This document shows, piece after piece, positions 26,049-58,911 of a stretch of 64,000 nucleotides of DNA (positions are counted from its first letter, which is position 1; every line of letters begins with the position of its first letter). Made by a program: the position numbers and the translations under genes. Source of the stretch: Acidobacteriota bacterium (lineage in GTDB: Bacteria > Acidobacteriota > Blastocatellia > Pyrinomonadales > Pyrinomonadaceae); NCBI GenBank assembly GCA_025463135.1, contig JAOAPY010000015.1:62001-126000 (forward strand), given 5' to 3'. The notes below the pieces were generated by a model. The model worked only from the letters and a program-made list of their open reading frames with translations, did not search any database and was not told the DNA's origin.

Positions 26049-26124
26049 GGGCAAAGCGTCAAGAGCCCCGCGCCAAGGGCAGAACTCTTTGCCTTAGCTC
26101 TTGGCCCTTAGCTCCCTGCTCCTA
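26049..26124. repeat. Inverted heptamer array (GRGCNAA family) at the UDP-xylose synthase end
   Basis: Left part runs in GGGCAAA/GCGTCAA/GCGCCAA units; right part runs TTAGCTC/TTGGCCC/TTAGCTC in the opposite sense. The array encodes the last residues (SRELRAKS) of the upstream enzyme and supplies its stop codon. Confidence 0.7.
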
Positions 26125-31773: not shown

Positions 31774-31792
31774 TAAACCTCCGATTGGGTCT

Positions 31793-31880
31793 TTGATCTT
31801 GGGTCTTGGGTGTTGGATTACAAGTCCAGGAACCCGGTGCAATCATAAAAATCAAAGGCCTAAGACCCAAGACCAAAGTC
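31793..31880. repeat. Inverted heptamer array (TTGGGTC family)
   Basis: Left units TCTTGGG/TCTTGGG and right units CCTAAGA/CCCAAGA/CCAAAG run as a 7-base inverted pair around a ~40-base loop. Lies between the MocA start and the methyltransferase stop. Confidence 0.6.
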
Positions 31881-49997: not shown

Positions 49998-50270
49998 GCT
50001 AAGAGCGAAGGGCTAAGAGCAAAGGTGTAAGTATAGGTAAAGGGTCAGCTGAGTTAGGGCAGTCAGGAAGGGGACCCTGTCCCCGCTCAACTTGCGATAG
50101 ATTCATGAAAAGGTAGTGCCGCTCAAATTATCTAAAGACTCACTGACTTCATGATTGTTGGATTCCAAAGTTGAGCGGGGACAGGGTCCCCTTCCTGACT
50201 GCCCTTCCCGCTCTTGAATTGTCTTTTCACTTGGCACTTAGCCCTTGGCTCTTTGCCCTTCGCTCTTTGC
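49998..50270. repeat. Pair of inverted heptamer arrays flanking an inverted-repeat element
   Basis: Left array (49998-50025, GCTAAGAGCGAAGGGCTAAG...) and right array (50243-50270) are inverted copies that match at 25 of 28 positions by hand. They bracket the inverted-repeat element at 50058-50204. The right array forms the last codons (KSEGQRAKG) of the CgeB-like gene. Confidence 0.75.
50058..50204. repeat. Inverted-repeat element, copy 2
   Basis: Left arm GGGCAGTCAGGAAGGGGACC at 50058; right arm ends at 50204 with the same sequence inverted. The ~36-base arms, ending near TTGAGC, are close to perfect; the ~75-base centre is unrelated to copies 1 and 3. Between the flippase start and the CgeB-like stop. 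No gene inside. Confidence 0.85.
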
Positions 50271-51287
50271 AGGCTTTAGCCCGGTGGCCTCCATGATTTC
50301 GCCAATGCGTGATTCCCAACTCCAGTTGGAACATAGTTCCTGGCGACGCACGAGTGCGCGCTGCAAATAGCACTCACGTTTCTCCCATAGACTCTCAAAA
50401 AGTCCCGCAAGGTCGCCATTTGCCTGATCGATTTCTATGACTGCGTCGTGTCCAAAGAGTTTGGCAAAGCCAGGTTCTAACGGTACCTGGCCCAGGATCA
50501 CGTTGCCGCTTGCCGCGGCCTCAAACCACCTACAGGTAATCGGGCTATGCGCTTTCGCTCTGCTTGGATGGGTCAACTCCATCGGCCAGCAAAAGTTGAA
50601 GATGGCGTGACAGAGGTGCCAGGCGTACTGCCCATAATGGTCACGAGGATCCAGATCTGACTGGACCAATGCCGTGGTTGTGTAATCGTAGTATTTTCCA
50701 TTCCGGCCGCAATATTCGCGCATGGTCTTATGAATCGGTTCGAGGCGCCGGCCATAGGCACAAAAGTCAATGACCCTCCGGTCGCTGGGTGCCGGACGGA
50801 ATCGATTCAAGTTCACGGCATGCCGCACCAGGTGCCAAGACCGCTGTGTTTCCTCTTCAAGAAAAAACCTGGAACCATACAGGGCAGTAGACGTGAAGTC
50901 CCAATTCGTCGAGTCCAGGACGCGGCGAATCGAAGGCAACTGCGCGTCATAGGTATCGAATAAATAAAGAATCTTAAGTCCGACGTGTCTGTCCCACCCT
51001 TTGTACAGGTCGAGATTAAAACTCTCCGGTCCCATCAAGACCACCCACAGAACATCGGCTTTCAGATCGTGATGCTCTTTGGGTACCCACTTTCGCAGGC
51101 CGCTGTATCGTGTTCCATGCGCCAGCCGCCCGCCAATAAATCCGGGGAACGCTCGACTTGGCGCAAGCACCCGCTCAGCGCCTGTCAGGCGCACAATCTC
51201 ATCTTCAAAATCCCGGAGCATTCCATACTCCAGGCCGCGCAAAGATGGATTAGTCAGGACTACGTGTCGGAGTTGTTCCTGGGCCAT
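50238..51287 (-). CDS. CgeB-like glycosyltransferase
   Basis: 349 residues. ADVLWVVLMGPESFNLDLYKGWD and ILYLFDTYDAQLPSIRRVL in the N-terminal half, then DFCAYGRRLEPIHKTMREYC and a C-terminal CRWFEAAASGNVILGQVPLEPGF, typical of CgeB-type enzymes in EPS loci. The C-terminus KSEGQRAKG is encoded by a heptamer array, so the native end may have been altered. Specificity unknown. Confidence 0.72.
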   Translation of the reverse strand: MAQEQLRHVVLTNPSLRGLEYGMLRDFEDEIVRLTGAERVLAPSRAFPGFIGGRLAHGTRYSGLRKWVPKEHHDLKADVLWVVLMGPESFNLDLYKGWDRHVGLKILYLFDTYDAQLPSIRRVLDSTNWDFTSTALYGSRFFLEEETQRSWHLVRHAVNLNRFRPAPSDRRVIDFCAYGRRLEPIHKTMREYCGRNGKYYDYTTTALVQSDLDPRDHYGQYAWHLCHAIFNFCWPMELTHPSRAKAHSPITCRWFEAAASGNVILGQVPLEPGFAKLFGHDAVIEIDQANGDLAGLFESLWEKRECYLQRALVRRQELCSNWSWESRIGEIMEATGLKPAKSEGQRAKG

Positions 51288-51317
51288 TTGCCGTGGGTGT
51301 TTGAATTCAGCTACCGC

Positions 51318-52541
51318 TCACGATTGTGTAGCGCGCGAAGCCTTTGCTCTCTTACCTTGTGCGGCCACCTTTCGATAAAGCTCAATCACCTTCGGTCTAA
51401 TCAAGCTAAGGTCGAGGCGCTCGTCTACTAAGTCGCTGTTCATCTCAGCCGCTCGATCGACCAACATGTCGTCTGTCAAAGCTCGCCGGATAGCAGCGGC
51501 GATTGATGATGGATCGGTAGGCGAAACGAGCAGGCCGTTCATACCGTCCTCGATCCACTCGGCAGTTGAGATAGTGTCGGACTGGATTGGGAAAGCGCCC
51601 AGCACCATCGCCTCCAACATTGCGTTGGGTGTACCGTCACTGCTGCTGACGCCGATCGCGATTCGCGCGGTGCCCATCAGGTCCAGCATTTCTTCATGCG
51701 TACATTTTTGTCGTACTTCGGTAACGCGCAAACCTTCGATTTGGGAAATCTTTCGTAGGGCTTCGCGAATTTCGTTGCTGGCGGAAAAGACGCGCAACTC
51801 GAAACCGCTTAATAAATCTCTGCAACTTTCAAAAGCTTGCAAAGCGGCGAGCGCATTGGCGCCGCGAATTGTCTGGTGGCCCTTAAGGGCGATCACTTTT
51901 CGCGCCGACGTTGGACCAGGTTGGCGAAAGCGGCGCATGCCTTCCAGATCATAACCGCCCGCTGTAGTAAACACTCCGAGTGTTTCGCCGTTAAATCCGA
52001 ACTTCTCTGCCAGCGGCAAATCACGCTCGCAATCGGCGATGAAATAATCACAATCCGATAAGAAATCTCTTATGCGCCCCTGGTGTTCCGGTTGTTCGCC
52101 GAAAAGGAACAGATCATTTCCCCAGCAGGAAAAGATGCACGGCGGGAAGGGATCACCCTTCATTTGCTGCCTGGCTTCAAGTGCGACGTAACCTGCGCTT
52201 TGCATTTCGAGAACATGAATGATATCGGGCTTCAACGATTTTATTTTGCGAGCAAGCCTGGCCGCTTGCGAAGCGCGACGGGGTGCAATTAGCTGAGCGA
52301 TTTGCCTGATTCGAGCAACACCGCGCGGTAGGGGCCAGTAAAACCCCTTCTGATGAACCCCTGCTTTGTTGCCGTTCCAATGATCTCGATAGTAGGAGTG
52401 GATCGTAACATTCCGATAATCCTTATGCGGAATTCCGACTTCAACGGGGAAGAGATGCAGGTCCCAACCTTCATCGGCAATCTGGCTCAGCCAGCGAGCC
52501 GTATGAACGCTTTCGCCGATGGCAACGAACAGAATGCGCAT
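51318..52541 (-). CDS. Glycosyltransferase family 4
   Basis: About 407 residues from ATG 52541 (MRILFVAIGESVHTARWLSQI); the longer frame upstream is heptamer repeat. Donor-side motifs VIALKGHQTIRGANALAALQAF, VRQKCTHEEMLDLMGTARIAIGVSSSDGTPNAMLEAMVLGAFPI with the family pair, and LLVSPTDPSSIAAAIRRAL. A GT4 enzyme of the EPS type. Lies 30 bp upstream of the CgeB-like gene at 50238-51287. Confidence 0.87.
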   Translation of the reverse strand: MRILFVAIGESVHTARWLSQIADEGWDLHLFPVEVGIPHKDYRNVTIHSYYRDHWNGNKAGVHQKGFYWPLPRGVARIRQIAQLIAPRRASQAARLARKIKSLKPDIIHVLEMQSAGYVALEARQQMKGDPFPPCIFSCWGNDLFLFGEQPEHQGRIRDFLSDCDYFIADCERDLPLAEKFGFNGETLGVFTTAGGYDLEGMRRFRQPGPTSARKVIALKGHQTIRGANALAALQAFESCRDLLSGFELRVFSASNEIREALRKISQIEGLRVTEVRQKCTHEEMLDLMGTARIAIGVSSSDGTPNAMLEAMVLGAFPIQSDTISTAEWIEDGMNGLLVSPTDPSSIAAAIRRALTDDMLVDRAAEMNSDLVDERLDLSLIRPKVIELYRKVAAQGKRAKASRATQS

Positions 52542-52546
52542 TGGAG

Positions 52547-52676
52547 GGCAAAGGGCAAAGGGCAGAGAGCAAAGCGCTAAGAGCAAAGGGCGAAGAGCAA
52601 AGCGCAAAGGGCAAGGGCAAGGGTAAATGGCTAGCTCCGCCGGCCTTTGCTCTTAGCCCTTTGCTCTTCGCTCATT
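52547..52676. repeat. Inverted heptamer array (GRGCNAA family) between GT4 and wzc-like genes
   Basis: Ten or so units GGGCAAA/GAGCAAA/GCGCTAA from 52547, then CTCCGCCGGCC, then TTTGCTC-TTAGCCC-TTTGCTC-TTCGCTC in the opposite sense to 52673. The longest array in the window. Confidence 0.8.
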
Positions 52677-55119
52677 AAGCGGACGCAGCGTGGCTGGTCT
52701 CCTCGGTCTCGGGATCGGTCTTGTAGTAATTCTGGCTGTAGTAACGCTGGTAGTAGTAGTAATCGTGCGTCTGTAAATTGATGTTATTTAAGACGACGCC
52801 AAAAATCCTGGCGCCGACGTCTTGCAGCAATTGTCGCGAACGGCGCACAACGTGACGCGAACTCTTGCCCCCGTGAACCACCAACAGGACACCATCGACC
52901 ATCGTGGAGATGAGTACGCCATCAGTAAACGATGCGATGGGCGGCGAGTCGATGACGACATGACTGTATTTTGATTGCAAGGCAGCAACCAGTCGCCGCA
53001 TTTGATCAGAGCCCAACAGCTCAGCCGGATTTGGCGGTATGGGGCCCGAGGTCAGAATGTTGAGATCGCTCACCGGGTCGTGGTCGACTACGCTAATCAT
53101 CTCCAACTCGGTCATCTCACTCGCGAGGATTGAACTCAAGCCTGCCTTGGCCTCAAGTCCAAAAATGGAGCGCAACCGGGGTCGACGCATATCCGCATCC
53201 ACAATTACAACACTGGCACCCGTTTGGGCCAAACTAAGCGCGGTGTTTACAGCCGTCGTCGTCTTCCCTTCTCCTGGCAGACTGGAAGTTACAAGCAATG
53301 CCTTGGGCGCGCGACCAGCAGTGGAAAGCAATACAGACGTGCGCAGGTGCCGGTACGATTCCGCCAGCGGCGACCTGCCATCAACGTTCATTAACAACTC
53401 AGGATTAGTGGAAGCAGATCCGTTTCCGTTTTTCCTTAGCAGTGTTCCGGGCGCAGCGGCCAGGGCTTTGCGGCGCGCCGCCGGAGCGATAGCGGGAATA
53501 ACCGCGAGCGCCGGCAGATGTAAAAGGCGTTCGACCTCTTCGGTAGAGTGAATCGTGTCGTCAAGGTATTCAAGAAACAAAGCCAGGCCTATACCCAGAC
53601 CAAGCGACAGCAGGAAAGCTATCATGACGCCACGCATACGATTCGGACCGACCGGTCCCTCTGGAGCGATCGCGTGATCCACGACGGAGATATTATTAGC
53701 ATTGCTCGCGCCCGTTACCTCGTTCTCTTTTGAACGCTGGAGTAAGTTCGTCAGCAAGCCTTTGTTCGTCTCGATACCCTGCTGGATGATGTGGTAGTTA
53801 ATGGCGGCTTCGTTCTGCGTAAGAGTCTCCGCCCGCTGTTGCGTGAATTGTTTGCGGAGGAACTCCTCCTTGGCGAGTGCCTGGCGATAACGCGTCTCGA
53901 GATTTGTCAGTAGCGTCGAACCTTTTTGACTGCGACCTTCCTTTAGCTGCTTCTCGATCTCTGCGATTTGCTGATTAATTTCCTTCACTTCCGGTGCTTC
54001 TTCGGTAGCATCCACCAGCAGTTGGGCCCGCTTCTGCTTGAGATCGTTAAGGCGTGCCTCATTGTCGGCTGCTTGTTTTGTATCTCCCTCGGCCAGTGCA
54101 CTGGCCGCGCCGGGGGCCTGGGCAGCATGAAAGGCCGATTCCGCGGTGCTGCGCTCATTTTCGGCTTCAAGTAATTGTCCGTTCAATCCTGCGAGACGCT
54201 CGACGACGGTGTTTTGCTTCTCATCAAGCGAGAGGATCTGATGGCTCTTGGCGTAGTTCACCAGCTTCTCTTCGTCTTCGCGGATGTGTGCCTGCAAATC
54301 AGCAACGCGCTTTTGCAGAAAATCACCGGTGGTCTCGTTGGTCTTTTCCTTTTTCTCAAAATTCTGGGCTCTGAAGGTGTCAGCAATAGTATTGATGACT
54401 TTGGCGGCCACGATGGGGTCGGTGTGCTGAAAACTTATGTCGATGAGGCGAGTCTCTTTATTAAAACCGCCGCGACTTTCCCTGACCGGCTCGACATGCA
54501 GCCCGCCGGCAATTCTGCCGACGAACGGAGCGAGGCGCTTAGCTTCCTTCAGATCCTCTGCGTCGTTGGTTGCGGCGGGTTCCGTTGAGAGCGTCAATTC
54601 ATCCTTCGGTTGCGGCAGCGGCTCCGTTTCCTGGCCCTTGAGGCCAATCATTTTCAGCACTGTTTGCCAGGTCGAACGCTTCTGACCCTGTCCCTTGAGG
54701 AAGTCGGGGTTATGTTCCAGATCCAAAGTCTTTACTACGCGGCGGAGTAAACCGGCGCTGGTCAGAATTTGCAACTGCGTATTGAAGTAGACCGGATCGT
54801 TGGGCGTGCCGATAAAATAAGGAGTCTTCAAACCCAGCGCTGCGTTGTTCTCGAGGTCAACCTGCACCCGCGCATCGGCCTGATAAATATCAGGCTTTCG
54901 AGCCATGTAAACGACTGCCAGCATGGTGACCAGCACCACGACGCTAATGACCAGCCAAAGCCGCTTGCGTATTGCGCGCCAATAGTCGAGCAGGTGAATC
55001 TCGTTCTCGGCATTGGGATCGACGCCATAGTTATAGCTATGTGGCGTCCCGCCTTCGATTGGTTTATCGAGCGCACTGGTCTGCGCAATGCGCGCTGCAA
55101 TTTGGCTGGATTCTTTCAT
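52675..55119 (-). CDS. Wzc-like polysaccharide co-polymerase and tyrosine autokinase
   Basis: 814 residues. Wzz-type N-terminal domain with a transmembrane segment at about 57-77 (LWLVISVVVLVTMLAVVYMA), a long coiled-coil periplasmic region (about 280-500), a second transmembrane segment (GVMIAFLLSLGLGIGLALFL), then the BY-kinase domain with Walker A SSLPGEGKTTTA (about 610), A' VVIVDADMRRPRL and Walker B HVVIDSPP. The C-terminal Tyr cluster (DYYYYQRYYSQNYYKT) is the autophosphorylation site. Controls chain length and export with Wza. ATG 55119 has AAAGGA six bases upstream. Confidence 0.93.
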   Translation of the reverse strand: MKESSQIAARIAQTSALDKPIEGGTPHSYNYGVDPNAENEIHLLDYWRAIRKRLWLVISVVVLVTMLAVVYMARKPDIYQADARVQVDLENNAALGLKTPYFIGTPNDPVYFNTQLQILTSAGLLRRVVKTLDLEHNPDFLKGQGQKRSTWQTVLKMIGLKGQETEPLPQPKDELTLSTEPAATNDAEDLKEAKRLAPFVGRIAGGLHVEPVRESRGGFNKETRLIDISFQHTDPIVAAKVINTIADTFRAQNFEKKEKTNETTGDFLQKRVADLQAHIREDEEKLVNYAKSHQILSLDEKQNTVVERLAGLNGQLLEAENERSTAESAFHAAQAPGAASALAEGDTKQAADNEARLNDLKQKRAQLLVDATEEAPEVKEINQQIAEIEKQLKEGRSQKGSTLLTNLETRYRQALAKEEFLRKQFTQQRAETLTQNEAAINYHIIQQGIETNKGLLTNLLQRSKENEVTGASNANNISVVDHAIAPEGPVGPNRMRGVMIAFLLSLGLGIGLALFLEYLDDTIHSTEEVERLLHLPALAVIPAIAPAARRKALAAAPGTLLRKNGNGSASTNPELLMNVDGRSPLAESYRHLRTSVLLSTAGRAPKALLVTSSLPGEGKTTTAVNTALSLAQTGASVVIVDADMRRPRLRSIFGLEAKAGLSSILASEMTELEMISVVDHDPVSDLNILTSGPIPPNPAELLGSDQMRRLVAALQSKYSHVVIDSPPIASFTDGVLISTMVDGVLLVVHGGKSSRHVVRRSRQLLQDVGARIFGVVLNNINLQTHDYYYYQRYYSQNYYKTDPETEETSHAASA

Positions 55120-55139
55120 CGGTTTCCTTTAAGAGCAAA

Positions 55140-55608
55140 GAGCTAAGAGCAAAGAGCTGAGCGCGAAGAGATTAGCTAACTGCCGAGGGTTCGTGAAAAG
55201 TTCGTGATCTTGCGACTGAGCAAATCACAGTCCCTCAGGAGATCATCAACCTCAGCGCCACTCACCAACCCAAGGCCCTCAAAAACCATTAGCATTGAGG
55301 CATCCTCGAATAGGGATCGCCTGGCGATGTTTAGGTATTGCATAAATTCGCGCGAGTGGGTGCTGCCGGAACCTTCGGCGATATTATTTGTCAGTGACAG
55401 GCCCGCCGCTCGTAGCTGTTCGGCATAGCGATAAAGACGCCTTTTATCCAGCTCCTCCGCGAGCCTATGTAATTTCACAGCAAGGACGCGGGCCCGCTGC
55501 CAGATTTCCAGATCCTCAAACCTGAAATGGGGTCTCGCCGTTTTAGGGGCCGTAATTCTCTGCATGCAGCCTCTCTACGCTTCGCCCTTAGCTCTTTGCT
55601 CTTAGCCC
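55140..55608. repeat. Inverted heptamer arrays bracketing the S23-like gene
   Basis: Left array 55140-55168 (GAGCTAAGAGCAAAGAGC...) and right array 55580-55608 are inverted copies matching at 26 of 29 positions. The only gene between them is the S23/IVP-like CDS 55176-55565, which fills almost the whole interval. This has the form of a small element with inverted ends, but no transposase or target duplication is seen. Confidence 0.8.
55176..55565 (-). CDS. Four-helix-bundle S23/IVP-family protein
   Basis: 129 residues, helical. The signature FRFEDLEIWQRARVLAVKLH, then RYAEQLRAAGLSLTNNIAEGSG and REFMQYLNIARRSLFE, is that of the 23S-rRNA-intervening-sequence (S23/four helix bundle) family. These are named for ORFs within rRNA intervening sequences; their biochemical role is unproved. 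It is not in rRNA here but between wza and wzc, seven bases from one heptamer array and fourteen from the other. ATG 55565. Unrelated in function to the neighbouring polysaccharide genes as far as can be seen. Confidence 0.87.
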   Translation of the reverse strand: MQRITAPKTARPHFRFEDLEIWQRARVLAVKLHRLAEELDKRRLYRYAEQLRAAGLSLTNNIAEGSGSTHSREFMQYLNIARRSLFEDASMLMVFEGLGLVSGAEVDDLLRDCDLLSRKITNFSRTLGS

Positions 55609-56715
55609 TTACGGAATCACTCTTACTGGCAGTTGGCCGACGCTGGGCGCAATGGTACCCATTAGGCTGCGGATCAAGCTCTTGGCGCCTGAGGTGGGGA
55701 CGTCAACGATGTCATTCGGCATCAGGGAAATGTCCTCGGCCTTTTTCTTTTCAATGGCGCTGAGATCCGCATAGATTTCTTTCTTGGTGTTGCTCCCTGG
55801 TTGCTGGCGGACGACGCGGATCTTTTCCTTCTTGCTGTCCATACCCAGGCCACCAGCCATCGCTATTGCCTGGCTCAAGGTGATCGGTTCTTTCAGTGGT
55901 ATCGCGCGCGGCACCTTGACGTTTCCGACTACATAAATCTGGTCGGCCTCAGGCAAAGTGACGATATCACCATTCTCGAGATACGGATTCGCTGCCTCCG
56001 CTCCCAACATAGTGTCACGCAGCCTGTAGCTGGCAAAACCTGTGGCTAGAGATTCGTTGACCTGGTCGCCTTCATCGCACTGATGCGCCGTGGGTGAATG
56101 AACGACATTGATAGTCTGACCAGCGTTTGTGGCCGGGCCTTTCGCATAGGTCAGCAGATCGAGCAACCGTATGCGGCGCTGCAATTGAAAGCGGCCCTGC
56201 TCACCCACAAAACCAATGATTGCTACTTGTGACCCTTTGAATTCCTTAATAAAAACATCCACCTGTGGATTGCGATAGAACTTCAGATAGCGGTTCGAAA
56301 TTTCTTTCGCCAATTCGCTCTCTGACAAACAGCCCGCCATGATTGGCGTGTCGATTAATGGCATTCGAATAGTGCCATTCCCCTCGACGCGAACTGCGTC
56401 TCGGGAAAGATTAGGGCGATTCAATATGCGAATATCCAGCACATCACCAGGTCCGATCTTGTAGTGCTCATCAGTAGCGGCATTGCTGAATGGCGTTTTC
56501 AACTGCGTTACCGGTTGTTTGGGAGTTACCACGGCTGCGGTTGTGGCTCCCGTTGCTTGCGTCTTTTCCGCTGAGGTTTGGGCGCCGGCTGGCTGCCACA
56601 TTAAGAGGACGCACGGCAAAAGGCCAAACCATCTTGCATGAGTCAAAAGGCCGTGACGAAATCCAATTGTCGACTTCGGATCTGTTCTTAATTGAGATTT
56701 GGGCATGTTCCACAT
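55609..56715 (-). CDS. Wza-type polysaccharide export protein
   Basis: 368 residues. N-terminal signal (about 25-47), no clear lipobox. Polysaccharide biosynthesis/export domain with YKIGPGDVLDIRILNRP, then SLBB-type segments (AIIGFVGEQGRFQL and VYVVGNVKVPRAIPL) and a conserved C-terminal NDIVDVPTSG. Forms the outer-membrane export channel with Wzc. ATG 56715 has GGAG eight bases upstream; the upstream GTG 56721 has no spacer. The stop lies beside a heptamer array. Start of the wza-S23-wzc run. Confidence 0.9.
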   Translation of the reverse strand: MWNMPKSQLRTDPKSTIGFRHGLLTHARWFGLLPCVLLMWQPAGAQTSAEKTQATGATTAAVVTPKQPVTQLKTPFSNAATDEHYKIGPGDVLDIRILNRPNLSRDAVRVEGNGTIRMPLIDTPIMAGCLSESELAKEISNRYLKFYRNPQVDVFIKEFKGSQVAIIGFVGEQGRFQLQRRIRLLDLLTYAKGPATNAGQTINVVHSPTAHQCDEGDQVNESLATGFASYRLRDTMLGAEAANPYLENGDIVTLPEADQIYVVGNVKVPRAIPLKEPITLSQAIAMAGGLGMDSKKEKIRVVRQQPGSNTKKEIYADLSAIEKKKAEDISLMPNDIVDVPTSGAKSLIRSLMGTIAPSVGQLPVRVIP

Positions 56716-56757
56716 AGTCACAACTCCTACTAAGTGTTTGTTAACTGGCGAGGTAGA

Positions 56758-57048
56758 TCATTTTCCTGACATTCCCAGTCGGCGAGACATCAAGGCCTCG
56801 CGCATGTGATTAGGATGGGCAAGATTAAGTACCGTGTTGCTCAGAAGTACCAGGAGTTCTTCATGCTCGCGGTGAAAAGCGCCGGTCAGAGGCTGATCGC
56901 CTGTCTTTACGACAATGCCGTCCCTGACCCATTGCCAGAACTGGGTCTGCGTGGTCCAGAACTCGCGCCGGTCACGGCAGACGACGAGCGCCGTCTTCCG
57001 TTTCTTTTTCTTCTTCTTGTCCTTGTCCTTTTTGACGTCTTTCTTCAT
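56758..57048 (-). CDS. Small lysine-rich hypothetical protein
   Basis: 96 residues. Begins with a lysine/aspartate run (MKKDVKKDKDKKKKKK) then TALVVCRDRREFWTTQTQFWQWVRDGIVVKT, GDQPLTGAFHREHEELLVLLSN and LAHPNHMREALMSRR. No known domain is recognised; cytosolic and probably helical. Basic N-terminus suggests nucleic acid or membrane-acidic-lipid binding. Same direction as wza and 36 bp upstream of its start; may be co-transcribed. Function unknown. Confidence 0.6.
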   Translation of the reverse strand: MKKDVKKDKDKKKKKKRKTALVVCRDRREFWTTQTQFWQWVRDGIVVKTGDQPLTGAFHREHEELLVLLSNTVLNLAHPNHMREALMSRRLGMSGK

Positions 57049-57203
57049 GTCTTATCGATAGTAAGATCTTTTTGGACACACCGGTGACCTTGCATGGCAT
57101 TTCATTATCGGCGCCGGATTCAGATGACCCGGCGTGAAAGAAGCCACACATAGTACCCCGAAGGGAAGCCTTATGTGCAAGGCGGCATCAGGTTTTCAAA
57201 CCT

Positions 57204-57253
57204 GGGAGCGCGGGCTTCCGGCCCGCCCTGCGAGCAGGGATGCTCGCGCTCCC
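57204..57253. repeat. Cloverleaf-type palindrome
   Basis: Outer stem GGGAGC...GCTCCC with two internal hairpins: GCGGGC/GCCCGC (57210-57215, 57221-57226) and GCGAGCA/TGCTCGC (57230-57236, 57241-57247). It lies just past the LuxR stop (57257) and could end that transcript. Only one copy in the window. Confidence 0.7.
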
Positions 57254-57256
57254 GGA

Positions 57257-57895
57257 TCACATCAACAAACGCGATATCAACTCGGCCCTTCGCTTGACTC
57301 CAAACTTGATAAAAATGTGCCGCAGATGGAACTTGACGGTTTGTTCGGTGACGCCGAGGCGGCTTCCTATCTCGGCATTTGTTAATCCTTCGACACAGCA
57401 AAGGGTCACCTGGGCTTCGCGCCGGCTGAGCATGTTGTTGGCGACGACTCGCTTGATTGCCCTTTCAAAGAATTGATTTCCATCTCTGATGCGTACTGCG
57501 TGCGGATATATTTCGACGCCCATTGCCTGTCGATGGGCGAGAACGTCTTCCGGCGTGCGCACACAAAAGTGTTTAGTAGTGCCGCCGTTTGCGCCACCAT
57601 TGGCCAAGCGCTCAATGCTGAGTTTAGTGAGCAGGCCCTCGAGTCCGCGGCGGACGGTCCCCGAAGTGCGGATGCTGGTGAGCAGCATCAAGTGTCGCGT
57701 ACTGAAGAGGCCCGTATGGCTGCCCTCGGTCGCCTTCTCAGAGAGCATCGATACGTAGAGCCTGTGTTCCAGTGGTGTGTGGCTCAGCGCAACCAAAGCC
57801 ATGGCGCGGCCGTCGGTAGAAAGTTCACCGGGCTCGCCTAAAGGGTAGGTTTCTGACTCTACCCCGCTCTTGATTAGCGTCTTTTGCGGAAACAT
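57257..57895 (-). CDS. LuxR-type HTH transcriptional regulator
   Basis: 212 residues. C-terminal helix-turn-helix about 145-205 with LSRREAQVTLCCVEGLTNAEIGSRLGVTEQTVKFHLRHIFIKFGVKRRAELI. The N-terminal ~130 residues have no recognised sensing domain: no receiver Asp, no PAS signature, no acyl-homoserine-lactone motif is visible. Orientation is the same as the Wza/Wzc genes, 208 bp upstream of the Lys-rich gene, so it is a candidate regulator of the polysaccharide export operon. The trigger is unknown. Confidence 0.85.
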   Translation of the reverse strand: MFPQKTLIKSGVESETYPLGEPGELSTDGRAMALVALSHTPLEHRLYVSMLSEKATEGSHTGLFSTRHLMLLTSIRTSGTVRRGLEGLLTKLSIERLANGGANGGTTKHFCVRTPEDVLAHRQAMGVEIYPHAVRIRDGNQFFERAIKRVVANNMLSRREAQVTLCCVEGLTNAEIGSRLGVTEQTVKFHLRHIFIKFGVKRRAELISRLLM

Positions 57896-58290
57896 CTATT
57901 GTTCGCGGTGATTGCGGCGAGAAGTTAACGCCGTCACTGTGGTAAACCCAAAGAGTCGCTCGGGAAGAATCCTTCGGACCGGACTGCAAAATCTTAAAGT
58001 AAAAGGGCGAATTAAGTGTATGCCTTTCTCTCTTATTCTTCGATAAATTGTGCTTTTGATTTTCACTGAGGTATTGCGATGTTCGGATTCCCTGAGCGGG
58101 ACGACGCAACCCTCAAAGCCCCAAAGCCAATCATCAAAACCATTTGAGTGGTGAAGCCTAATTCGTCCCTTGAATCCTGTCAAGCGAATAAACGGCGAAG
58201 GGCGAAGGGCAAAGGGCGAAGGGCAGGGGGCGAAGGGCAGGGAGCGAAGGGCAGAGGGTTGGCCGGCCCTTACCTCTTAGCCCTTTGCTC
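57896..58290. other. 395-bp intergenic region upstream of the LuxR-type gene
   Basis: No gene is supported. It holds a candidate promoter (58155-58183) for the regulator and an inverted heptamer array (58193-58309) reaching the gmhA stop. The rest, 57896-58150, shows nothing recognisable beyond A/T-rich patches at 57996-58070. Confidence 0.7.
58155..58183 (-). promoter_or_regulatory. Candidate promoter upstream of the LuxR-type gene
   Basis: Minus strand: perfect -35 TTGACA (58183-58178), 17-base spacer, weak -10 TAGGCT (58160-58155), about 260 bases before the ATG at 57895. Unusually long leader if used. Confidence 0.3.
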
Positions 58291-58309
58291 TTAGCGCGCG
58301 CTTCGCGCT
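58193..58309. repeat. Inverted heptamer array (GRGCNAA family) at the gmhA terminus
   Basis: Left GGGCGAA/GGGCAAA/GGGCAGG units, a central GGCCGGCC, then TTAGCCC/TTTGCTC/TTAGCGC/TTCGCCC in the opposite sense. The right part encodes the last residues (GEARSAR) of gmhA and supplies its TAA. Confidence 0.8.
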
Positions 58310-58911
58310 TCGCCCATCGCGTCAACCATCTCGCACCATAGGTGGCCAATGGTAATGTGGGCTTCCTGAACTCTGGATGTCCGATCTGAGCCTATAATCA
58401 ACGCCTGATCACAGAGCGAGGCCAAACGGCCGCCGTCGCGTCCGCCCAAAGCCATGGTTTGGCACCCAAGGTCTTTCGCTGTTTCAACGGCCCGAATGAC
58501 GTTGGGGGATCCTCCGCTGGTGCTTATCGCTATCAGGAGGTCGTTTTTTTGGGCTAAAGCTAGAATCTGACGCGCGAATACTTCTTCGTAGCCAAAATCA
58601 TTACTAATTGCGGTCAAGGCTGAGGTGTCAGTGGTGAGAGCGATTGCGGGCCAGGCGCGGCGGTGAAGTTCATACCTTCCGACCAATTCTGCGGCAATAT
58701 GCTGTGCGTCCGCGGCGCTTCCGCCGTTGCCACAGAGCAGGATCTTATTACCAGCTGTCAGCGTCTGACAGATGAGGTCTCCCGTTTGCTGAATCAATTC
58801 CAGCTTCGTATCCAGCAGTGTCTTCAGGGATTCCAAATGCTCTTCCAGCGAACGAGCCAGTAACGCTCGTGTAGCTGTCGAACTCTCGGATTTCGGTGAA
58901 TTGGTTTCCAC
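58291..58911 (-). CDS. gmhA: SIS-domain phosphoheptose isomerase-like protein
   Basis: 206 residues. Converts sedoheptulose 7-phosphate to D-glycero-D-manno-heptose 7-phosphate, the first step of ADP- or GDP-heptose synthesis. The SIS motif ILLCGNGGSAADAQHIAAELVGRYELHRR is the GmhA signature, followed by NDFGYEEVFARQ, ISTSGGSPNVIRAVETA and a C-terminal HITIGHLWCEMVDA. The start is GTG 58911. The C-terminal residues come from a heptamer array. No other heptose pathway gene is in the window. Divergent from mutS. Confidence 0.88.
   Translation of the reverse strand: METNSPKSESSTATRALLARSLEEHLESLKTLLDTKLELIQQTGDLICQTLTAGNKILLCGNGGSAADAQHIAAELVGRYELHRRAWPAIALTTDTSALTAISNDFGYEEVFARQILALAQKNDLLIAISTSGGSPNVIRAVETAKDLGCQTMALGGRDGGRLASLCDQALIIGSDRTSRVQEAHITIGHLWCEMVDAMGEARSAR

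Follow-up and report, generated by a model that had tools for sequence, protein, structure and literature searches.

Is a small S23/IVP gene that lies between two inverted arrays of tandem heptamers, among protein genes, the cargo of a mobile unit whose ends are those arrays? The locus that raises the question lies in a 64,000-nucleotide stretch of an Acidobacteriota bacterium (GenBank assembly GCA_025463135.1, contig JAOAPY010000015.1, positions 62,001 to 126,000; hereafter the window), where a reading made from the letters alone (the sequence-only reading) had proposed an element related to the intervening sequences (IVSs) of rRNA, moving outside rRNA with the heptamers as its ends. We consider a mobile unit of this kind quite likely, with heptamer arrays as ends and an S23/IVP gene between them, the window holding one copy of ~0.45–0.5 kb. 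The support comes from comparison across loci, with filled and empty sites at loci other than the window's.

The window gene (55176-55565, minus strand; 129 aa plus stop) encodes a four-helix-bundle protein of the S23/IVP family (PF05635, E = 5.1e–25; TIGR02436, E = 3.7e–24); PF05635 was the only family above cut-off for the protein, and the full-length unit contains no transposase gene. The left array (55131-55170, plus strand; 55130-55170 by Tandem Repeats Finder; five units at 55131-55165 by unit scan) is the 3' arm on the IVP strand, ends 5–7 nt from the IVP stop codon and reads AAGAGCA AAGAGCT AAGAGCA AAGAGCT GAGCGCG AAGAG. The right array (55580-55611, minus strand; four units at 55583-55610 by unit scan) is the 5' arm and reads TAAGGGC TAAGAGC AAAGAGC TAAGGGC GAAG on the IVP strand. 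These arrays, of a class we write AAGAGCN, are inverted on both sides of an intact gene; the inverted arms (55138-55168 and 55580-55610) have 31 nt each, are 90% complementary and enclose 411 nt. The coordinates and the arm match given by the sequence-only reading (a 130-codon gene with gaps of 7 and 14 nt to the arrays) are thereby confirmed, as is the layout that it likened to an IVS, complementary ends with the open reading frame (ORF) in the loop, for which RNA folding predicts the arms as terminal stem (z = –2.95). The unit fills a tight gap between ORFs 55609-56721 and 52675-55119, which share one strand and to which the sequence-only reading gave the putative names wza and wzc; its outermost right heptamer overlaps the stop codon of the upstream one, 55609-56721. 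The copy is thus placed between two protein ORFs and not inside a 23S rRNA gene, the location that defines an IVS.

The window's genome has seven PF05635 matches, six of them above cut-off. None of the other six loci has an AAGAGC array within 1 kb, and most lie within inverted heptamers of different units (CAGAAGG, AAAGACC, AAAAGGC). A weak PF05635 match (L007) has the inverted unit GTAATTA, the flanks of L006 show a weaker pattern, and at a broken IVP copy (L005) the flank scan found no inverted heptamers. Because IVP genes of one genome thus carry heptamer ends of different units, we surveyed IVP genes in general.

Among 40 genomes (the window's own and 39 relatives), 33 had PF05635 matches, up to 17 per genome; these numbers count matches at E = 0.001, not all of which are above cut-off. 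The first set comprised 76 class-level loci (seven from the window's genome, 29 allotted and the next 40 by E-value, with two contig-edge rows, G005:C91 and G016:C44, passed over). Period-7 arrays occurred within 350 nt of the gene at 54 of 76 left and 52 of 75 right flanks (L039, with only 2 nt of right flank, was left out), as against 8 of 76 and 2 of 71 at 1000–1350 nt and 1 of 30 on each side of PIN genes, although these PIN counts include three truncated loci (L076, L095, L096) with a wrong right edge; the later PIN set is the 27 of 30 without them. Periods 4–6 and 8–13 were found at 0–5 loci, and period 14, the double, tracked period 7. In some IVP loci of Bacteroidota and candidate phyla (L178, L200, L186, L199) the repeat period is 8 or 9 rather than 7.

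From a scan of genome contigs we kept the best 80 of 584 loci, which favour canonical IVPs since they were picked by the conserved motif SIxxNIAEG; their titles name Planctomycetes, Chloroploca, Proteobacteria, Clostridia, Bacteroidetes, cyanobacteria, candidate phyla and others, and plasmids added four. In these 84 loci the median inverted alignment of left with right flank was 19.5, against 9.0 for swapped partners, with arrays at 44 of 84 on each side. With six more plasmid loci the pooled set reached 166, one of them untestable and two (L059 and L165) the same gene from two collections. We called an arm where the local alignment between the two 350-nt flanks, one reverse-complemented, scored at least 13.5. 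Arms were present at 138 of the 165 testable IVP loci, compared with 1 of 144 far flank pairs, 1 of 27 PIN loci and 56 of 1650 swapped partners; at this threshold the far flanks and PIN loci exclude chance for the window arms, and the window observation is real. Two loci (L229 and L230) fail the automated test, since there the match took in the entire ORF, whose stop codon overlaps the 3' arm; their arms are visible when the filled and empty sites are aligned. Direct-orientation matches above the same cut (4 of 75 and 11 of 84 IVP loci) carry no signal here, given that PIN loci score 8 of 30. Four 23S motifs, searched without a positive control, were absent from all of these loci.

The result was replicated on 51 contigs from a viral collection, reduced to 40 non-redundant loci: arms were found at 34 of 40 near flanks, 0 of 25 far flanks and 24 of 400 swapped partners, and by DNA comparison, none of the 51 loci has an IVP gene in common with the loci surveyed before. 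A separate phage collection gave no match. That heptamer arms bracket other S23-like genes thus holds for most of them, in the window's own genome and in other phyla, L005 being without. On three cyanobacterial plasmids (L218, L235, L232) the unit lies inside a CRISPR operon, twice as cas6-IVP-cas4 and once as cmr2-IVP-cmr3.

Filled and empty sites were read at several places. In a conjugation operon of Nostocales plasmids the unit is present in Trichormus variabilis (NC_007412.1) and Scytonema NIES-4073, and the same site is empty (a 13-nt gap, at 97.7–98.2% identity) in Nostoc linckia, Tolypothrix PCC 7601, Aulosira laxa and Nostoc carneum, the four compared out of six plasmid records with a gap there. 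The insert consists of array, gene and array with few extra edge bases, and a 5-nt GTAAT is doubled. The left array of the Scytonema copy is shorter by 14 nt; at the same site, Nostoc C052 reads as a truncated remnant of the unit and Brasilonema has a short IVP-less hairpin with heptamer arms. A second Nostoc plasmid junction is filled in L230, L368 and L369 and empty in L237, L370, L371 and L372, with TTCTA on both sides of the unit in L368 and L369. Inverted terminal repeats bound the insert at the filled and empty plasmid sites compared; the empty sites that a mobile unit should leave were thus found, arms and IVP together making up the insert. The plasmid IVPs gave dN/dS values of 0.10–0.15 in 8 of 10 pairs (the other two, at 0.86 and 0, being too close to tell), which indicates that the IVP is under purifying selection. 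In L369 (1167-1730) an IVP gene is split by a nested hairpin of the same heptamers.

Two comparisons outside these junctions were at greater distance. Nostoc edaphicum has nrdB-IVP-nrdA where Calothrix NIES-4105, at 85% identity, has no IVP. In the relative G038 a unit lies inside a gene; in the counterpart of that gene in the congener G034 (75–76% identity) the matching pieces are only 43 nt apart. G038 has 57 copies of the GCGARTG doublet, and G034 has none. The reversed control pattern for GCGARTG has 52 and 85 hits in G016 and G017, probably another abundant heptamer class. We rejected disruption of the G038 gene, which is lengthened rather than broken, as the reading frame of the host gene continues without a stop through the unit (L056, 1331-2009). 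The open host frame differs from the IVP frame, by chance in GC-rich DNA or by selection for frame-neutral insertion.

The unit sequence also follows the gene. For IVP pairs at least 60% identical, unit similarity was 0.774, where permutation gave 0.586 on average and at most 0.635 (2000 permutations; 67 class-level arms and 98 such pairs, 94 of them between different genomes). For pairs below 60% identity, similarity was 0.54–0.63 within and 0.57–0.62 across genomes; same-genome pairs being no more alike, we rejected a genome-wide dominant unit as the explanation. Among 137 loci, near-equal units made up 36% of pairs at 70–80% IVP identity, 19% at 60–70%, 1–2% at 20–60% and 1 of 25 pairs below. 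These comparisons indicate that among close relatives the array unit follows the IVP gene and not the host genome, the coupling fading with distance; that IVP genes simply insert into any array present in a genome is hard to reconcile with this. The arrangement at most IVP loci, a unit that follows the gene among relatives, and the joint difference of arms and gene between filled and empty sites together show arms and gene to be a single unit.

Arms have a median length of 32 nt (quartiles 27–37, that is, 4–5 heptamers), lie close to the ends of the IVP ORF across the surveyed loci, and delimit a unit of median 488 nt. The 5' arm has G in excess of C at 128 of 138 loci and at 32 of 34 of the viral-contig set, a bias that, with arms that repeat each other in inverted orientation, belongs to the hairpin and not to gene direction. 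Inverted pairs in the genome blocks sampled for the census described below and in the window were G-first in 8 of 8 cases outside G009 (the window IVP pair included) and in 6 of 11 in G009. Arms aligned in phase gave a consensus of about (T/A)(C/T)AG(T/G), with 2.29 bits against 1.64 ± 0.06 for within-unit shuffles (maximum 1.74 of 40; 104 of the 130 arms of at least 20 nt were used). Stop codons in all three frames were considered, and set aside, as what the arrays are for: they occurred in 44 of 138 arms, a modest excess over the 31 ± 3.9 of within-unit shuffles. For the Trichormus unit, as for that of the window, the predicted fold pairs the arms into a terminal stem and leaves the ORF in the loop (z = –3.55); in RNA the arms would pair as they do in rRNA IVSs.

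The window IVP was modelled with four helices (AlphaFold2 pLDDT 93.7). Among solved structures it is closest to 2GSC and 2RLD of the S23 family, each with five chains per entry and titled as hypothetical or of unknown function, followed by Avd (4DWL, 8UB7 and kin), which is a pentamer. The Avd match had Foldseek probability 1.00 and TM 0.73/0.86, and a VIA Z-score of 14.5 to 4DWL (rmsd 1.8, 106 aligned residues, 14% identity). The bAvd family PF22296 was matched by 19 of 28 IVPs (best E = 9.1e–10). In a Bordetella phage diversity-generating retroelement (DGR), Avd acts with a reverse transcriptase (RT) on structured RNA (PMC12875486).

The closest known system is the rRNA IVS itself. That of Coxiella burnetii 23S rRNA (428 nt) usually has three GACAGAT heptamers and a GACAGAA upstream of the S23 start, and a terminal stem of 28 bp in which RNase III cuts it for excision (PMC4990558), which answers the third check proposed by the sequence-only reading, for heptamers at insertions in 23S genes; earlier authors cited there proposed, without demonstrating it, that rRNA IVSs are mobile. 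The units described here share with the 23S IVS the S23/IVP family, a similar size and an ORF in the loop of a terminal stem, but their sites, chromosomal or on plasmids, are within protein genes or in the gaps separating them, their arms vary by IVP lineage, and IVP-less hairpins occur too. Since the defining 23S location is lacking, the window unit is not an rRNA IVS proper; it is an IVS-type unit outside rRNA, working like an IVS rather than being one, and 23S IVSs are probably a special case of the unit.

A second likeness is to the heptanucleotide repeats, one kind of which is the cyanobacterial STRR (short tandemly repeated repetitive sequence). Other kinds are TAACTGA of Beggiatoaceae, for which an origin in a mobile element was considered (PMC4679880), and GGGAATC/GGGGATT of Xanthomonas and Nostoc, in convergent pairs in Xanthomonas (PMC4692102). 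Units like ours share with STRR-type repeats the intergenic tandem period-7 arrays, many per genome, but the available text of these two papers ties the repeats neither to S23 genes nor to inverted unit ends or empty sites. Xanthomonas campestris, from the genus with convergent GGGAATC heptamers, is the source of the IVP structure 2GSC. Among the papers listed in our search of one open-access library (subscription papers and preprints lay outside its scope), none links S23 genes outside rRNA to heptamer ends.

Inverted pairs without the gene are frequent. Over the window's whole genome the pattern RAGNGCNAAGRGC has 194 hits, against 25 for the reversed control pattern; the first 100 of the 194 comprise 39 arrays or isolated hits, with six inverted pairs, each AAGAGC-first, of which five have no S23 gene and the sixth is the window unit. 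The sequence-only reading had named two things that would count against it, S23-like genes elsewhere in the genome lacking heptamer flanks and heptamer pairs without cargo preference: five of the six pairs listed do lack the gene, whereas most other S23-like genes do have heptamer flanks. These S23-less pairs also fit non-autonomous copies. At the second Nostoc plasmid junction, two IVP-less hairpins with the arms of the unit there but different loops lie upstream in L368 and L370. We think it likely that IVP-less hairpins with the same arms are such copies, using the IVP in trans.

How the unit would move can be sketched with less confidence. It is evenly balanced whether the stem, once in transcripts, is cut by RNase III, in which case insertion between operon genes would cost little. 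Tentatively, and at less than an even chance, an IVP oligomer of the Avd fold might read the array on single-stranded RNA or DNA at about one subunit per heptamer, anchored on the AG, bringing the ends together for a host joining enzyme. Only a little short of evenly balanced is a wider proposal, that of a superfamily across many phyla with tandem heptamer ends, encoding only an Avd-fold oligomer that would read one subunit per heptamer on single-stranded nucleic acid, in which 23S IVSs would be those members that inserted into rRNA, while gene-less copies and footprints would account for the scattered heptanucleotide repeats of cyanobacteria, Beggiatoaceae and Xanthomonas.

Other explanations of the arrangement can be set against a census of period-7 arrays in 21 genomes, taken in 20-kb blocks that were contig starts or chosen stretches and not random (two blocks in G038 were chosen for known hairpins, the contig of the window's genome, G000, was known to hold arrays, and the G013 blocks avoid an IVP). 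The most probable of them is that the hairpins are REPIN-like, moved in trans by a Y1/HUH transposase with the IVP as accessory. Inverted short repeats around one gene, together with many gene-less inverted pairs, do recall REPINs and RAYTs (PMC3116915), and the number of IVPs correlated with that of Y1_Tnp matches per Mb (rho = 0.69, P = 8e–7), as against 0.31 for PIN and 0.06 for RT. This correlation (genomes G000–G039) might reflect a shared partner or a shared tolerance of mobile DNA. The ends here are tandem heptamers rather than single palindromes, however, and the protein has the Avd fold rather than that of a Y1 transposase. No period-7 array was present on either side of 20 Y1 genes, drawn from the first 27 rows of the match list; inverted matches were found at two, neither heptameric. 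Two of the 33 IVP-bearing genomes had no Y1 match, G029 has ten Y1 matches with no IVP and no arrays in 120 kb, and heptamer density was not significantly correlated with Y1 per Mb (rho = 0.34, P = 0.13). We therefore regard this explanation as unlikely, while the IVP/Y1 correlation leaves room for a Y1 enzyme acting in trans despite the Y1 loci without heptamers.

Distinctly unlikely is a retroelement, in which the unit would move via RNA by the IVP with an RT in trans, as with Avd in DGRs. The Avd fold with its weak family-level sequence relation, the RNA-like stem-loop and a correlation of heptamer density with RT per Mb (rho = 0.43, P = 0.052, 21 genomes) favour it. IVP and RT numbers were uncorrelated, however, and 18 of the 33 IVP-bearing genomes, some with 9–13 IVPs, had no match to RVT_1 (PF00078), although many are drafts and an RT could lie outside PF00078. 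The window's genome has its sole RVT_1 match on contig C21, with the window on C24 and no RT beside the IVP gene, unlike a DGR. An RT is thus unlikely to be required.

It is improbable that the arms are merely RNA processing or regulatory sites for IVP expression, the gene spreading by ordinary recombination with its flanks. The predicted terminal stem, arms near the ORF ends and the RNase III cut in the stem of the Coxiella IVS (PMC4990558) are as this explanation would have them, but in the clean GTAAT pair the insert ends at the arms or a few bases from them, and IVP-less hairpins with the same arms occur elsewhere in the same plasmids.

Very improbable is that arrays arise or spread alone, by slippage or local duplication, and that IVP genes land or survive in pre-existing inverted pairs: the S23-less pairs of the window's genome, the change in array copy number in Scytonema and the loose tie between heptamer density and IVP number speak for it, but the empty sites read hold no heptamers, the unit follows the gene across genomes among close IVP relatives, and 640 kb sampled from four IVP-free genomes contained 0 period-7 arrays. 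Slippage as the whole origin of the arrays was rejected, since the arms are inverted, agree far better within one locus than with arms elsewhere, and are missing at the empty sites that were read.

Several observations nevertheless weigh against a mobile unit with heptamer ends. Movement is inferred from comparison and none has been observed; the filled and empty comparisons all come from other loci than the window's. A clean target duplication occurs at one site only, GTAAT, as TTCTA resembles a heptamer and is ambiguous; at the next junction along the Nostoc plasmids, where L237 holds a unit with different arms and L230 is empty, only ATG is shared and there are ~36 extra nt. Three near-identical G038 hairpins could not be kept as recent jumps, the two compared lying in a 1.45-kb duplication. 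The arm threshold was chosen after the first set had been seen, those for the viral-contig set alone having been fixed beforehand, and 27 of the 165 loci have no arm at it. Unit similarity and IVP identity were weakly correlated over all pairs (rho = 0.14), and the coupling among close relatives could be co-inheritance without recognition. Heptamer density followed IVP number loosely (rho = 0.46, P = 0.036 uncorrected; 0.15 for other periods), with 0–50.8 arrays per 100 kb in six genomes of 1–3 IVPs and 0–28.8 in eleven of at least six; the 80 kb sampled from G013, a genome with 13 IVPs, contained no array, and G015 has two IVPs and the 50.8. RT per Mb did almost as well as IVP number. Family-profile and structure comparison recognised no catalytic or recombinase domain in the IVP, the VIA Z-score to Avd exceeds that of unrelated designed bundles by only 2 (14.5 vs. 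12.5), and the window IVP itself did not match PF22296.

A GCGAGTG hairpin lies within the duplicated G038 segment (L300 17648-19097 and L302 13478-14922, 94.7% identity), so larger repeats, too, can carry hairpins along.

Within the window, unit scan located four IVP-less inverted pairs of the AAGAGCN class, all with the AAGAGC strand first: 58198-58253 (plus) with 58265-58292 and 58297-58310 (minus), also used in the polarity count; 52544-52613 (plus) with 52648-52668 (minus); 50001-50021 (plus) with 50233-50267 (minus), 211 nt between arms; and a short pair of two units per side at 26061-26109. Four of the five AAGAGCN pairs fall within 8.3 kb (50001-58310), in what the sequence-only reading labelled an exopolysaccharide cluster; a wza-type protein was matched in all 40 genomes searched, the window's own included. 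The predicted N-terminus of ORF 51318-52607, MRFALRPLLLALCSLPFALCPP, is translated from a heptamer array, and the true start may be further in. At 31785-31878, facing period-7 arrays of TTGGGTC and CAAAGAC are probably a hairpin of another heptamer class, without an IVP.

What has been described looks like a widespread, overlooked kind of mobile DNA. It joins S23 proteins, rRNA IVSs and heptanucleotide repeats, whose origin is left open in the available text of the papers describing them, in one testable object, a unit whose ends can be recognised, for which empty sites and copies lacking the gene exist, and whose only protein has a known fold. Should the arms indeed be read by the IVP oligomer, the unit would be mobile DNA that lacks any recognised recombinase, and the question of how IVSs came to fragment rRNA could be put to the test.
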